A DNA stretch of 64,000 nt from the NCBI GenBank assembly GCA_003963305.1, contig RXJR01000001.1:186001-250000 (forward strand), given 5' to 3'. Of the stretch, positions 9,819 to 40,878 are shown in pieces (position 1 is the first letter of the stretch; each line of letters opens with the position of its first letter). The position numbers and the translations under genes are program-made. Below the pieces are notes generated by a model. It was not told where the DNA came from and did no database searches. It worked only from the letters and a program-made list of their open reading frames with translations. This stretch comes from Candidatus Melainabacteria bacterium. Its GTDB lineage: Bacteria > Cyanobacteriota > Vampirovibrionia > Obscuribacterales > Obscuribacteraceae.

Positions 9819-11030
9819 TTATTTAGTTTCGCTCAGAATCGGCACGAGATCCTCGCCGACAAGCACGGTGACAGCACTTTGTATATCTCCCACCGAGGCA
9901 TTAACAATCTCTCCCTGAACGCCAAGGTCCATCATGACTTGCTCGGCATCATCCGGATTTCCCTTCTGTGCAATCACTCTCGTCCTCTGAAACGGTCCGA
10001 TTTTGCTGGCTGATTGCTTGACGGTGACGATGTAACCCTTTCGTTGCAAAATCTTTGCAACCTTGAATGCCTCACCAGGCGTGGAACTCGCGTTCTGAAT
10101 AGTGATATGTATTTCGTTACGCAATGACGTTACAAAACTAGACCCCATCAAACGGCTGACGATATTTCGTACCTCTGAGCTGCTGGAACTCCAGCCGTTG
10201 CCGGCGAAGTCGCCCGGCAGAAGCATCATCTGCTGATTTTTCTTGGGTACGGCGCGGGCAAAAGTAGCCATTGAAATCATCTCGCTGCTTGTCATATCTG
10301 TAGACATGTATTGAGAGGCAATCTCCATAAGCTTCGGAAGATGGCTCCACGACTCAGGTTGAATTGCTTTTGCCAGCACTGCGCGTATAAAGATTTGTTG
10401 CCGCTGCACTCGCCCGATGTCTCCCAGCGCATCATGGCGGAAGCGCACGAATCCCATCGCCTGGTTCCCGGTGAGCGTGTGTGGTCCCGGTTCGAGGTCG
10501 ATCTTGAGCTTGGCGGTCCAATCCATATATTTCATTTTCTGGGGAACATCGACTGTGATTCCGCCCAGTTCATTGACCAGATCGACCAGCCCGTGCACAT
10601 TCAGGACCACGTAATGGTCGATTGGAATCTGCAAGAAGTTGCTCACAGTGCGAACCGCCAGGTTTGGACCGCCAATGGCGTTGGCAGCATTGATCTTCTG
10701 GGTGCCGTTATCAGGTATCGGCACTTCAGTGTCGCGGGGAATCGAGAGAATACTGAGCGTGTCGCGGACAGGGTCGAGGCGGCAGACCATGATCGTATCC
10801 GAACGACCAGTGAAGGCATTTTGATCGATTTTCTTGTTGCTATGACGCCCGAGATCGGTATAGACGACGTCAGTGCCGAGCAAAAGAACCGTAGTCGGCT
10901 GCGTCAAACTGCCGACGCGCAGCGCAGATGGTATCAATGTCGGCTTGAAATAAAGCGTCAGAATGTAGCCGATGATGACACCTACAACGGCACAGACGAT
11001 CAAAACAAAAGTCCAATTTGTCGGTCGCAA
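9819..11030 (-). CDS. LytR-CpsA-Psr (LCP) family cell-envelope ligase with LytR_C domain
   Basis: The 403-aa protein has an N-terminal transmembrane helix (about residues 7-28), then an LCP catalytic domain (about 45-215). Conserved features include GRSDTIMV, SIPRDTEV, KINAANAIGGP, the LGGI-V-VP strand and GFVRFRHD-GDIGRVQRQQ. A LytR_C domain occupies about 303-393. LCP enzymes transfer polyisoprenyl-phosphate-linked glycopolymers to peptidoglycan or other acceptors at the outer face of the membrane. The start is TTG at 11030. It is divergent from a glycosyltransferase gene 64-90 bp away, which fits a common role in surface polymers. Confidence 0.93.
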   Translation of the reverse strand: MRPTNWTFVLIVCAVVGVIIGYILTLYFKPTLIPSALRVGSLTQPTTVLLLGTDVVYTDLGRHSNKKIDQNAFTGRSDTIMVCRLDPVRDTLSILSIPRDTEVPIPDNGTQKINAANAIGGPNLAVRTVSNFLQIPIDHYVVLNVHGLVDLVNELGGITVDVPQKMKYMDWTAKLKIDLEPGPHTLTGNQAMGFVRFRHDALGDIGRVQRQQIFIRAVLAKAIQPESWSHLPKLMEIASQYMSTDMTSSEMISMATFARAVPKKNQQMMLLPGDFAGNGWSSSSSEVRNIVSRLMGSSFVTSLRNEIHITIQNASSTPGEAFKVAKILQRKGYIVTVKQSASKIGPFQRTRVIAQKGNPDDAEQVMMDLGVQGEIVNASVGDIQSAVTVLVGEDLVPILSETK

Positions 11031-11118
11031 AACAGAATTCCTAAGGGCGCTCTGAGCTATTATAGGTCCTGAAAATGATCGTTGCCCAAATCAAGTGCCA
11101 CAGCCAGAGTCGAGTGAG

Positions 11119-12204
11119 ATGATTCCAAGGTTACATAAGACAAACAAAATACTTGCCATCAATTTTGGAGGCATCGGCGATGAAGTCTTGTTTTTGCCGA
11201 CGCTGAAGACACTGCGCCAGGCATATCCAAAGGCGCACATCACGCTGCTGCTGGAACCGCGCTCACGCTCAATCGAACAAATCACCGATCTGATCGATGC
11301 CACCATTACCTTCGACATCAAAAAACGTCCTCTCTATCTGGCCGATATAGTCGAACTGGTAAGACTGCTGCAAGACGGAGAGTACGAGCTGATTTTATCG
11401 TCGGGAAGTTCAAAGATGGTTTCTATCTTGCTCTTTCTGGGCGGCGCAAACTGGCGCATCGGCTATGACTCGGGTCCACTCTCGCGAATGCTTTTGACGC
11501 ATCCGGTCAAACTAAACCGAGAGCAATACGCATCAGATATGTATCACGACCTCGCCGTCGGGCTGGATCCCTCCGCCGCTAGAAACGGCACAGGCACTAT
11601 TCCTGAGATACATATTCCGCAAGAGAGCCTGGCGCGCATGGAAGAATTCCTGCGCACTAGCGATACCAAATCCGGTGCCAGAAAAATTCTCTTGCACCCA
11701 GGTACCAGCCGTCTTGCTGTCGAAAAAGGAATAATCAAAACCTGGGAAATCAACGACTGGATTGAGTTCATTAAAAAGCTTGACCGTGACCCTGATTGCC
11801 AGCCGATTCTCGCTGGCGGTCCAGACGACACTGAGATCATCAAAGAAATTCAGGCAGGCTTGCCGTCAAACACGCGTCTTATCTCTTCAGCCGGCAAGAC
11901 CAAGAGCCTGGCTGACTTGGCGGCATTGACAAAGCTTTCCGACGTGCTCGTCTGCGTCGATTCCGCCCCTATGCACATCGCCGTGGGCGCAAGAAAGCCT
12001 GTCGTCGCGATGTTCGGACCAACAGACGAAGCAAAGCTCCTGCCCAAACACCCGCATTTTGTCGCTTTGCGGGCCGCTACTGCTTCCCAGCCGACTCTAG
12101 CCGTTCGCGGCGTTCAGCTTCCGCCAGATACTGTGTACCAGTCTGTGCGGTGCTTATTGACGGAATTGAAAGACCAAGAAAGCTCTCTGGCACTTCACCA
12201 TTAA
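11119..12204 (+). CDS. Glycosyltransferase family 9 (heptosyltransferase-like)
   Basis: The protein shows the two GT-B lobes of the ADP-heptose:LPS heptosyltransferase family. The N-terminus reads KILAINFGGIGDEVLFLPTL, the C-terminal lobe has LLHPGTS and CVDSAPMHIAVGARKPVVAMFGPT, the nucleotide-sugar binding motif. I start at ATG 11119 (361 aa), though an in-frame GTG lies at 11095. The sugar and acceptor cannot be read from the sequence. The last 128 nt overlap, tail to tail, the 3' end of the HD-GYP gene on the other strand. A second GT9 gene is at 28819-30054. Confidence 0.9.
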   Translation: MIPRLHKTNKILAINFGGIGDEVLFLPTLKTLRQAYPKAHITLLLEPRSRSIEQITDLIDATITFDIKKRPLYLADIVELVRLLQDGEYELILSSGSSKMVSILLFLGGANWRIGYDSGPLSRMLLTHPVKLNREQYASDMYHDLAVGLDPSAARNGTGTIPEIHIPQESLARMEEFLRTSDTKSGARKILLHPGTSRLAVEKGIIKTWEINDWIEFIKKLDRDPDCQPILAGGPDDTEIIKEIQAGLPSNTRLISSAGKTKSLADLAALTKLSDVLVCVDSAPMHIAVGARKPVVAMFGPTDEAKLLPKHPHFVALRAATASQPTLAVRGVQLPPDTVYQSVRCLLTELKDQESSLALHH

Positions 12205-23118: not shown

Positions 23119-24180
23119 CTAGAGAGCTGCGCGGATTCCGTATCTGAGCATTCTCCTCAGACCACCTCGCATAGCACGATTAGCCATTCTGTTTTGCTGC
23201 ATTTGCTGTTTATTCGCGGCCAGCACTTGTGGGTTTCCAATTATCTGCTCTTTTTTCGCAAGCTGTTTATCTACCTTGCCATCGGCATCTCGGTCATCTT
23301 CATGCTTGTCATACTTCTGGCGACCATAGTCAACGTAATTGGCGACATCGAACTGCGTGTAGCGCTCGAACGGTCTTTGCGCCATTCGTTGATGCATCAA
23401 TTGATCCGTAGTCTGAAAAGCTTCCCAGGGGATTTGCGCACCTTTCACATTGGCTTGAGCGGCGAGTTGCGGATTCAAAATCACATCAGATTTATACAAA
23501 CGATGCTTGGCTTCGTACTTCGCATCGAATCCCTGTAAATGGCTTCTCTTGCGAGTTGCGTCAGAATGTTTCGCAGCATGAGCGAGGTGCATTTGCGAGA
23601 ACATTTGATTCTTCTGCGCACGTGATAAATTTGGATTCAACCAAACCTGATTGAGCTGGTTAGCCAGACCCATCTCTGAAACGAGATCCGACGAGTTCCA
23701 GTACCCTTGCAGGCATGTCAAAACAGTACCGTCTGCAGACAACATGAACATCTGAATATTATGCGGCCCGGCACCATTGGTGGTGTTAATAGCTTTGCCG
23801 TCGACCTCATGTCGCCCCGAAATTCCGCAATAGGGCTCGTTTGTAATGTCTTGCGTACCGCATACGAAATAATCTTTGAGAGCGGTAAAGGCGGGATCCT
23901 GCGAGAGCGACACGGCTCTCAAGCTGTTACCGGCGCTTCACGTGGCGCCGCTTAGATTTCCCAACATATGCATCCAAAAGATCATCTTGCCTTCCCGCTG
24001 AGCTTGATATTCAGCCTGCGGCAATGATGCATGCCAGTTGATTTGATGAGTCAGTTGAGCAACATTATTTTGAGTCACGTTACCAGACATAAGTCTGGGT
24101 GCAGCAAACGAAGGAATTAATGCCACCGTCAAAGCGCCGACCAGGCTTGCCGCAATCAGATATGAGGATCTATGCTTCAT
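23119..24180 (-). CDS. Probable selenoprotein: exported thioredoxin-like protein read through an in-frame TGA (Sec81)
   Basis: Two minus-strand reading frames (up to 23938, and from 23922 down to 23119) are in the same phase and separated by exactly one TGA (23938-23940). Read through, they give one 353-aa protein. It has a signal peptide (ATG 24180; MKHRSSYLIAASLVGALTVA), a thioredoxin-like start (residues about 50-80, GKMIFWMHMLGNLSGAT), U at 81 followed by SAGNSLRAVSLSQ, then FVCGTQDI, GAGPHNIQMFMLSADGTVLTCLQGYW, which continue the same fold. The C-terminal third is basic and helical. A SECIS-like hairpin starts 18 nt after the TGA, and selB is at 38953-40878. A nonsense pseudogene or two separate genes are the alternatives; the second part alone has only a TTG start and no Shine-Dalgarno and would lack the first beta strand. 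The catalytic role is inferred as thiol/selenol redox in the envelope. Confidence 0.8.
23901..23925 (-). promoter_or_regulatory. Bacterial SECIS-like stem-loop after the TGA
   Basis: In the mRNA the stem GAGAGC/GCUCUC is perfect (23915-23920 with 23903-23908) and closes a six-base loop CGUGUC. Two more G-C pairs extend it across a UU bulge on the 5' side. The loop starts 24 nt after UGA and has G as its second base, which fits the known bacterial SECIS rules (loop 16-37 nt from UGA, G in the first two loop bases). Confidence 0.7.
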
Positions 24181-38952: not shown

Positions 38953-40878
38953 TCAGTCTTTAGGTGCTTTTATCAAGACGCGTGTGTTATTTAGGCGTCG
39001 GGTAATCAGCTTATTGTCGAAATAGGCGAGCAAAGCCATAGCGTATTTACGGCTTGTACCAAGACTTTCACGAAATTCAGAAGGTGAAATTTCCTTCTTA
39101 GTCTCCCAAATCTTGGCCAGACAAGCGTGCGCCTTACGAATAGCAGCAGCAGAACTGGCATAGTCATGATCGACGATGCACGCCAATTCCTGCTTGCTCA
39201 AAGCCTGTAATGTTGATTGAACTAATTTCCGATCAGTCTTCAACACCTTGCAAATCTCGTCGATTTCGAGACAGATAGTCGCATTCAATATTTCCAGCAC
39301 TTTATTGGCAAGCTCTGTTTGTACCGGCGAGACCGCCGCTTTTTCTACCATTTGAGAAATTTTGTCGCCGTTGCGAGAGATAAGCCCGGCATCAGAAAGC
39401 TCTTTCAGAAAGTGTTGGAATAGTTGCCGATCGAGCGTATTTGAAACTTTCATGCGCACAGACTCGATCGAAAATTCCGGCGGCTCCGAATCGGGTTCCG
39501 CCTTAACAGAAACGACCTTCTGGATTCGCTGTTTAACGTCCTGAGCGCGCTTGGCATTGATTATGAAATTAGACTCTTGCAAAAGCGTGCCAGCCTGAGT
39601 GCATGCAACAAAGGCTCTTTCTCTTTCCGCAACAGGCAGAAAGCTCGACAGAGATTCCTTCTTCGCAGCAGGTTGAGTCATATTCTCCAAATAAAAATCT
39701 ACAGCAGCGTTGTAATCGCGACGCACTAATTGATCCGCAAAGACGTTCAATTTATTTCGAGTCATCCAACGCGGTCGGTTTGTCACCAGGACCACTCCGC
39801 CGGTGATGCCTTCATCGCCATAACGAATGACGAATCGATCGCCGGGCTCAGCAACGACCGGGTCGGTCAAAACGATCTGGGCAATAAGAGCTTGCTCAGC
39901 CTCAATCGCCTGGCACCACCTGAGGTGCCCGAAACATTCAGCGGTACCATGGTAGAAACGCACCGGTTGGTCTTCGATATCTGCCGCCTTGACTCGCTCT
40001 TCCGACAATCCGAGTTGTTCGATACGAGCAACTATAGTCGTGACGACAGGCACATTCCAATTAGCGACAACCTGCCCACGCACGAGCGGTTTATTTTCTT
40101 TCAATGAAATATTGACCGCCAACCGTTGCCCAGCGGTAGCATTTTGAATTTGCTTTTTAAATGTTTCGAGTCCTCGAATGCGCCCTTTTATTTCCCCTGG
40201 CTCAATCGAAATGCTGTCGCCTACCGCCAGTTGCCCGCTCACCAGCGTGCCTGTGACTACCACGCCATAGCCAGTCTTGGAAAAGACTCTGTCGACGGGC
40301 AGAATGGCACCACCGTTTGCAGATGGACGCTCTACATCTTTCACCACAGCGCGGAGCTTTTCCTTCAAGTTCTCAAAGCCTGTGTTTTGAGTATTGGAAA
40401 CTCGTGCGATACCCATGCACTCGATTTGATAACGACGCAAAAGGTCGCGAACCGAATTCTCGACACTGTCCTGGCGCGCCTGATCGGCTACATCGATTTT
40501 GGTAAGCACAACAAGCGCTTTTCGAACGCCAAGCAGACTTAGAATCTTTGCATGACTGACTGTCTGCGGCATCGGACCCTCATCAGCCGCCACTACCAGC
40601 AGTGCCATTTGAATTCCGCCTACACCAGCCAGCATATTTTTCAAGAACTTGCCGTGACCGGGCACGTCGATAAACCCAATCACGAGTTGGGTGCCGTCGG
40701 CTTCCTGCGGGAAATTAAGATGTGCAAAGCCGATGTCTGTGGTCATCTGGCGCTGCTTCTCTTCTTTCAGACGATCGGGATCGATGCCCGTAAGAGCACG
40801 CAACACGCTGGTTTTGCCATGATCGACGTGACCAGCGGTGGCAAATGTAAAGTAAATTGGCTTCGTTTCTGCGCTCAT
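38953..40878 (-). CDS. selB: Selenocysteine-specific elongation factor
   Basis: The 641-aa protein has an EF-Tu-like GTPase domain with GHVDHGKT (16-23), IDVPGHGKF and LTKID, two beta-barrel domains, the SelB-specific domain IV, and four winged helices at the C-terminus. The last one ends in the hallmark FRESLGTSRKYAMALLAYFDNKLITRR. SelB carries Sec-tRNA(Sec) to the ribosome and binds the SECIS hairpin through its winged helices. The gene is alone here; selA, selD and selC are not in the window. The presence of selB shows that the organism can decode UGA as selenocysteine, which supports the call at 23119-24180. Confidence 0.96.
   Translation of the reverse strand: MSAETKPIYFTFATAGHVDHGKTSVLRALTGIDPDRLKEEKQRQMTTDIGFAHLNFPQEADGTQLVIGFIDVPGHGKFLKNMLAGVGGIQMALLVVAADEGPMPQTVSHAKILSLLGVRKALVVLTKIDVADQARQDSVENSVRDLLRRYQIECMGIARVSNTQNTGFENLKEKLRAVVKDVERPSANGGAILPVDRVFSKTGYGVVVTGTLVSGQLAVGDSISIEPGEIKGRIRGLETFKKQIQNATAGQRLAVNISLKENKPLVRGQVVANWNVPVVTTIVARIEQLGLSEERVKAADIEDQPVRFYHGTAECFGHLRWCQAIEAEQALIAQIVLTDPVVAEPGDRFVIRYGDEGITGGVVLVTNRPRWMTRNKLNVFADQLVRRDYNAAVDFYLENMTQPAAKKESLSSFLPVAERERAFVACTQAGTLLQESNFIINAKRAQDVKQRIQKVVSVKAEPDSEPPEFSIESVRMKVSNTLDRQLFQHFLKELSDAGLISRNGDKISQMVEKAAVSPVQTELANKVLEILNATICLEIDEICKVLKTDRKLVQSTLQALSKQELACIVDHDYASSAAAIRKAHACLAKIWETKKEISPSEFRESLGTSRKYAMALLAYFDNKLITRRLNNTRVLIKAPKD

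Follow-up and report, generated by a model that had tools for sequence, protein, structure and literature searches.

The minus-strand interval 23119-24180 of the window (the whole 64-kb stretch of DNA that was analysed) is in all likelihood a single gene that encodes an exported selenoprotein of thioredoxin fold; SelB and an mRNA hairpin would guide the decoding of its UGA at codon 81 as selenocysteine (Sec), and this UGA is very probably read as Sec at the active site of the protein. An earlier note on this DNA had proposed a single selenoprotein here, and the proposal is supported by computation through one conserved gene, a conserved TGA, a SECIS-type hairpin, a complete Sec machinery and a confident predicted thioredoxin fold. 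Export, catalysis, the substrate and the residue that would resolve Sec81 are what we infer beyond these.

On translation, 23119-24180 gives a single frame of 353 residues, running from an ATG at 24180 to a TAG stop at 23119-23121, and its sole interruption is the TGA at codon 81 (23938-23940), as the earlier note had read when it described minus-strand frames split by one TGA. The signal peptide that it placed in the first frame also appears to be there, since residues 1-27 (24100-24180) are hydrophobic, read MKHRSSYLIAASLVGALTVALIPSFA-AP with a SFA-AP end, and resemble the N-termini of homologues; this probable signal peptide was judged by eye. It is followed by a thioredoxin-fold domain (residues 41-205, 23566-24060), a conserved C-terminal region (residues 206-320, 23221-23565) with the pattern FxTTDxxMHERMxxRPF...FD...YGxxxYDKxE, delimited by the invariant columns of alignment A4 and the full-length model, and a variable basic tail (residues 321-353, 23122-23220), delimited by the alignment and the same model. 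The full-length AlphaFold model has a mean pLDDT of 88.0 and is mostly confident up to residue ~ 320. Hence the unusual basic C-terminal extension described earlier holds for the last ~ 30 residues, which are basic and vary, but not for the part up to ~ 320, where many columns are invariant.

A frame split by a TGA is on its own weak evidence, as such an arrangement is not rare: by a simple count, the 64-kb window has two such pairs (at least 70 aa followed by at least 200 aa). The other pair, at ~ 9821-11333 on the minus strand, looks like chance because the protein that follows its TGA is an ordinary LCP-type cell-wall protein. What raises the codon-81 case above chance is that the TGA is kept at one codon in 62/62 family members and that purifying selection acts on both sides of it.

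Indeed, when the joined protein is used as query, its own 7.48 Mb genome yields three copies, itself included, and related genes appear in 41 of the 53 genomes of the same order, with up to six per genome and exactly one in-frame TGA in nearly every match. The alignment of the main family, all 62 members of which share the position of the TGA codon, also shows Thr80, Ser82, Ala83, Ser86 and Arg88 to be invariant. A scan of 84,980 genomes using two patterns, one of which (T[TS]NGAGP[HR]N) is blind to residue 81, recovered 80 loci, and each of the 80 has TGA at the residue-81 codon. Furthermore, dN is far below dS before and after the TGA, and conservation runs across residue 81 without a break in alignments A1, A2 and A4. 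The comparison of homologues at residue 81 that had been suggested in the earlier note therefore returned TGA throughout both sets and Cys once; among the homologues examined, none ends at this residue and none loses its conservation there.

The family is found mostly in the non-photosynthetic relatives of Cyanobacteria (Candidatus Obscuribacterales / Melainabacteria). The loci from the scan also include metagenome-assembled genomes (MAGs) labelled Planctomycetota and Armatimonadota, whose members form clades of their own in the tree and whose genomes encode SelB; given these members, the family reaches beyond one order, although such labels can be wrong. Five of these Sec forms (L102, L149, L161, L142 and L158) carry SAGQ, SAGE or SAGN variants of the motif, fall into separate clades and all come with SelB, and gene transfer between phyla is possible. 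A phylum-wide search of 386 genomes gave, outside the genome of the window, only five weak matches lacking the TGA (E 3e-5 to 0.008), which tblastn did not confirm, and a plasmid search gave no match. Since the genomes are mostly incomplete MAGs, absences of the family are soft.

Of the roughly one hundred members examined, a single one has cysteine. This form, L041 in genome G034, reads GNTCAAASALRA and has TGT in place of TGA. It is nested within Sec paralogues, as sister to L056 with support of 99/91 and on a long branch, and this position in the tree would be as expected for a late change from Sec to Cys. Its hairpin codons (GCG GTC TCT CTT TCC compared to the usual GCC GTG TCG CTC TCN) differ synonymously, and a shorter hairpin can still form. 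Two further subfamilies were distinguished, both of which retain a CGUG-loop hairpin downstream of the UGA. The FCUT subfamily (FC-U-TNARLAR) has 21-26% core identity to the main family, a TGA that aligns with the column of the main-family TGA, and exactly one TGA in 18 of its strongest matches. Its members L073-L078 and L170-L184 show adjacent Cys and Sec residues (FCUTNARLAR), one TGA per gene and the shared hairpin position, and judging by this motif the two residues could possibly form a vicinal selenenylsulfide. A relative of this subfamily without the TGA, L200 (G016:C1:534374-534787), retains the Cys that precedes the site and has apparently Glu at the Sec position (DCEIAGQ). The third subfamily is the pair L079 and L080, with the motif GATUGNGHLSRA and TGA at the Sec site; both have longer N-terminal regions and a GAGC-CGUGC-GCUC hairpin after the UGA.

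In the window gene, the hairpin GAGAGC-CGUGUC-GCUCUC lies at 23903-23920 on the minus strand and starts 17 nt after the UGA, and the order-wide consensus downstream of the TGA is AGNGCCGGCAATAGCTTGAGAGCCGTGTCGCTCTC. The published bSECIS model comprises a stem of 4-16 bp, a loop of 3-9 nt located 16-37 nt after the UGA, a G at the first or second loop base and an MFE of -7.5 kcal/mol or lower (PMC13188914). With a 6 bp stem, the 6-nt loop CGUGUC, an apical loop 23 nt after the UGA and a mean energy of -9.2 kcal/mol, the hairpin lies within all of these constraints. Codon use inside it is almost frozen, with Ala as GCC in 59/59 (codon +8), Val as GTG in 60/60 (codon +9), Ser as TCG in 55/61 and Leu as CTC in 54/62, and the codon entropy ratio is 0.27 in the hairpin compared to 0.90 elsewhere, equally conserved residues outside the hairpin varying their codons freely. 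When synonymous codons were randomised, the mean fold energy weakened from -9.20 to -3.58 kcal/mol, and seven control segments treated in the same way displayed little or no change in energy.

The stem variants GAGAAC/GUUCUC, GAGGGA/UCCCUC, AAGGGA/UCCCUU and ACGGGC/GCCUGU still pair, and 96.0% of cells pair in the stated register compared to 38-66% with slid partners. Across subfamilies, there is a double change from G-C to A-U, and the observed covariation score was reached by 2 of 500 shuffles; within the main family, the common register has no stem position changed on both sides, and changes of this kind were confined to comparisons between subfamilies or to shifted registers. Dinucleotide shuffles of 45-nt segments reveal no unusual stability (z 0.11 for the window copy), and the hairpin is hence argued from the constraint on synonymous codons and from the pairing that stem variants retain. 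Run over the 7.5 Mb genome, a covariance model built on the TGA and hairpin region recovered exactly the three paralogues with E ~ 1e-8 or better. The next match had an E of 0.18, and the matches from there down do not look like selenoprotein genes and were set aside.

The genome encodes a complete set of SelA, SelB, SelD and tRNA-Sec, each scoring over its cut-off. The gene selB, for the selenocysteine-specific elongation factor, lies in the window itself at 38953-40878 on the minus strand (Pfam SelB-wing and EF-Tu domains; TIGR00475 at 336.6 bits, over cut-off), and SelA (432.5 bits), SelD (366.8 bits) and a tRNA-Sec with anticodon UCA (71.8 bits) are found elsewhere in the genome. Among the 53 genomes of the order, a tRNA-Sec over cut-off is present in 38 of the 41 that have the family and in 4 of the 12 that do not (Fisher p = 7e-5, or 4e-5 when SelB or tRNA-Sec is counted, both values ignoring relatedness and gaps in the MAGs). 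The genus is represented by three genomes (the window, G036:C98 and G037:C5), and in each of them selB is located ~ 15-19 kb from the selenoprotein gene. Moreover, in eight genomes from three genera (G007:C72, G009:C30, G010:C128, G033:C1, G034:C77, G035:C3, G047:C143 and G048:C183) a paralogue of the family lies ~ 12-23 kb from the tRNA-Sec gene, a proximity that suggests loose clustering of selenium genes.

These observations bear on two other readings of codon 81. Were the UGA a real stop, the region would encode a short secreted peptide of 80 residues, with an independent ORF downstream of it, or be a pseudogene broken by a nonsense codon, in line with the normal use of UGA as a stop in this genome and with the mechanical ORF list, which divides the frame. 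We regard this as highly improbable given that the same TGA is present in 62/62 and 80/80 sequences between two strongly conserved flanks with dN well below dS, and that in the core model the β strand before the TGA and the helix after it build one domain. Just as improbable is that the UGA is read as Trp, Gly or Cys by means of a variant code or a suppressor, or is passed by general readthrough. A full-length product is expected either way, but TGA has its ordinary stop role elsewhere in the window, where it terminates 10 of the 36 long ORFs; the genome has SelA, SelB, SelD and a tRNA-Sec(UCA), and this machinery co-occurs with the family; the SECIS-like hairpin is under synonymous constraint; and the lone member without TGA carries Cys and not Trp. 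The pseudogene, two-gene and variant-code readings were thus rejected on TGA conservation, dN far below dS, the Sec machinery and the constrained hairpin.

As regards the fold, the AlphaFold core model of the selenoprotein is a thioredoxin fold (pLDDT 93.6, pTM 0.90) with, in core-model numbering, a strand at 26-32, Sec at 41, a helix at 42-52 and strands at 65-71, 102-107 and 113-118. The Sec directly precedes the first active-site helix of this model, which agrees with the earlier proposal that the TGA falls at a thioredoxin-like redox position. The best structural match is 3f9u_B, a Bacteroides cytochrome-c-biogenesis-related domain (Z 13.2, rmsd 2.2 over 109), many others reach a Z of at least 10, and Foldseek with the full-length model matched the thioredoxin part alone among the matches listed. 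From the core model and these solved relatives, the Sec is placed where the attacking cysteine lies. It is found within the motif G-x-T-U-S-A-G/A-N-S-L-R, close to conserved His, Trp and Asn residues. Neither a CXXC nor a UXXC pair occurs, the usual resolving position being Gly or Ala in 62/62 members. Pro139 is kept in 61/62, three residues ahead of strand 3, and is lacking in the FCUT members; this describes its place in the sequence, and no canonical cis-Pro was identified. Two candidate partners of Sec81, Cys107 (codon 23860-23862, kept in 50/62) and Cys156 (codon 23713-23715, kept in 58/62), are not invariant. This leaves Sec alone as an invariant redox residue and makes an external reductant plausible.

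Compared with known systems, the window protein has the thioredoxin fold in common with the DsbD C-terminal domain, DsbH/DUF255 (Thioredox_DsbH), AGR2/AGR3 and Thioredoxin_7, at 7-17% identity. DsbD-gamma (Z ~ 10) and DsbH 2ju5 (Z 10.2) are among its structural matches, and AGR2/3 are also among the best. These folds usually carry a CXXC pair, whereas the window protein has Sec as the attacking residue, Gly/Ala at the resolving position and a conserved C-terminal region of ~ 110 residues. Searches of Pfam, NCBIfam and PDB sequences with the window protein yielded no useful match, and no Pfam or NCBIfam family reached its cut-off. Thioredoxin_7 and Thioredox_DsbH match 9/40 (best E 0.004) and 7/40 members (best E 1.1e-4) respectively, in both cases weakly, and neither matches the window protein. 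A catalogue from 2026 that covers 119 families of prokaryotic selenoproteins describes proteins of the same kind, with UGA, bSECIS and mostly thioredoxin folds; the TUSAG motif is in none of its listed entries and the lineage goes unmentioned (PMC13188914). In the literature search, which covered published work outside subscription sources, no paper linking selenocysteine with Obscuribacter was found, and papers on selenoproteins together with Melainabacteria concerned gut microbiota or diet only. As far as checked, the earlier description of the protein as undescribed holds both for Pfam and NCBIfam families at cut-off and for the catalogue. Because those models are unmatched and the inventory lacks TUSAG, the TUSAG family appears from these sequence comparisons to be a new, uncatalogued and large selenoprotein family. 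It is unusual in the near absence of Cys forms and in its number of paralogues per genome.

It could be argued that the protein is a divergent member of a named selenoprotein family and not a separate one. The VPGUxxT family (NCBIfam NF041382/NF041383) is likewise thioredoxin-like, with a named motif that lacks the CXXC pair, and its type 2 profile is the best weak match (E 6.5e-4, for a member of alignment A1), mainly to the FCUT subfamily; the Trx7/PDZ (seleno)protein family NF041199, a known CxxU selenoprotein family, shares a Thioredoxin_7-like start. The scores are 10-17 bits for the VPGUxxT profiles, whose cut-offs are 275 and 350, and 12-13 bits for NF041199, with a maximum of 12.7 among the members listed and a cut-off of 300; none of these profiles gives a match to the window protein, its GxTUSAGNSLR motif differs from VPGUxxT as TUSAG does from CxxU, and the C-terminal region is unlike. 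We consider such a membership improbable. A more serious alternative, still on the unlikely side, is that the Sec has a role other than redox catalysis of the thioredoxin type, for example in a selenium- or metal-binding site or in a peroxidase-type site with an unusual tetrad. The absence of a CXXC partner, the lack of an invariant second Cys, the conserved His, Trp and Asn nearby and the conserved C-terminal region would fit with it; the location of Sec at the thioredoxin catalytic position in a confidently modelled thioredoxin fold speaks against it.

For the thioredoxin-fold selenoprotein that we favour, SelB, with the mRNA hairpin that starts 17 bases past the UGA as its guide, would deliver Sec-tRNA(Sec) to the ribosome, and UGA-81 would be decoded as selenocysteine during translation. 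In the exported protein, Sec81 would then stand where the first active-site helix starts, the site of the attacking cysteine of thioredoxin, and could return to its reduced state with the help of an external thiol or by way of Cys107 or Cys156. The role would most likely be that of an envelope selenol/thiol oxidoreductase, acting as a peroxidase or as a disulfide/sulfenate reductase.

Present family libraries miss the TUSAG family, and standard gene finders would split or truncate its genes; the strongly constrained SECIS hairpin offers a ready query for further members. In most selenoprotein families, versions with cysteine are numerous. With one Cys form among roughly a hundred members, selenium itself may matter for the chemistry of this family. 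The expansion of paralogues and the co-occurrence with tRNA-Sec suggest that the TUSAG family is a main use of selenium in these bacteria. A wider view, which we put forward tentatively and hold to be somewhat less than an even chance, is that of an all-but-obligate Sec enzyme family with a single fold, several paralogues per genome and three or more subfamilies (TUSAG, FCUT and GATUGN), in which cysteine is hardly a substitute; present mostly in Obscuribacterales and in genomes labelled Planctomycetota and Armatimonadota, it might be a main reason why this branch near the Cyanobacteria keeps the Sec machinery.
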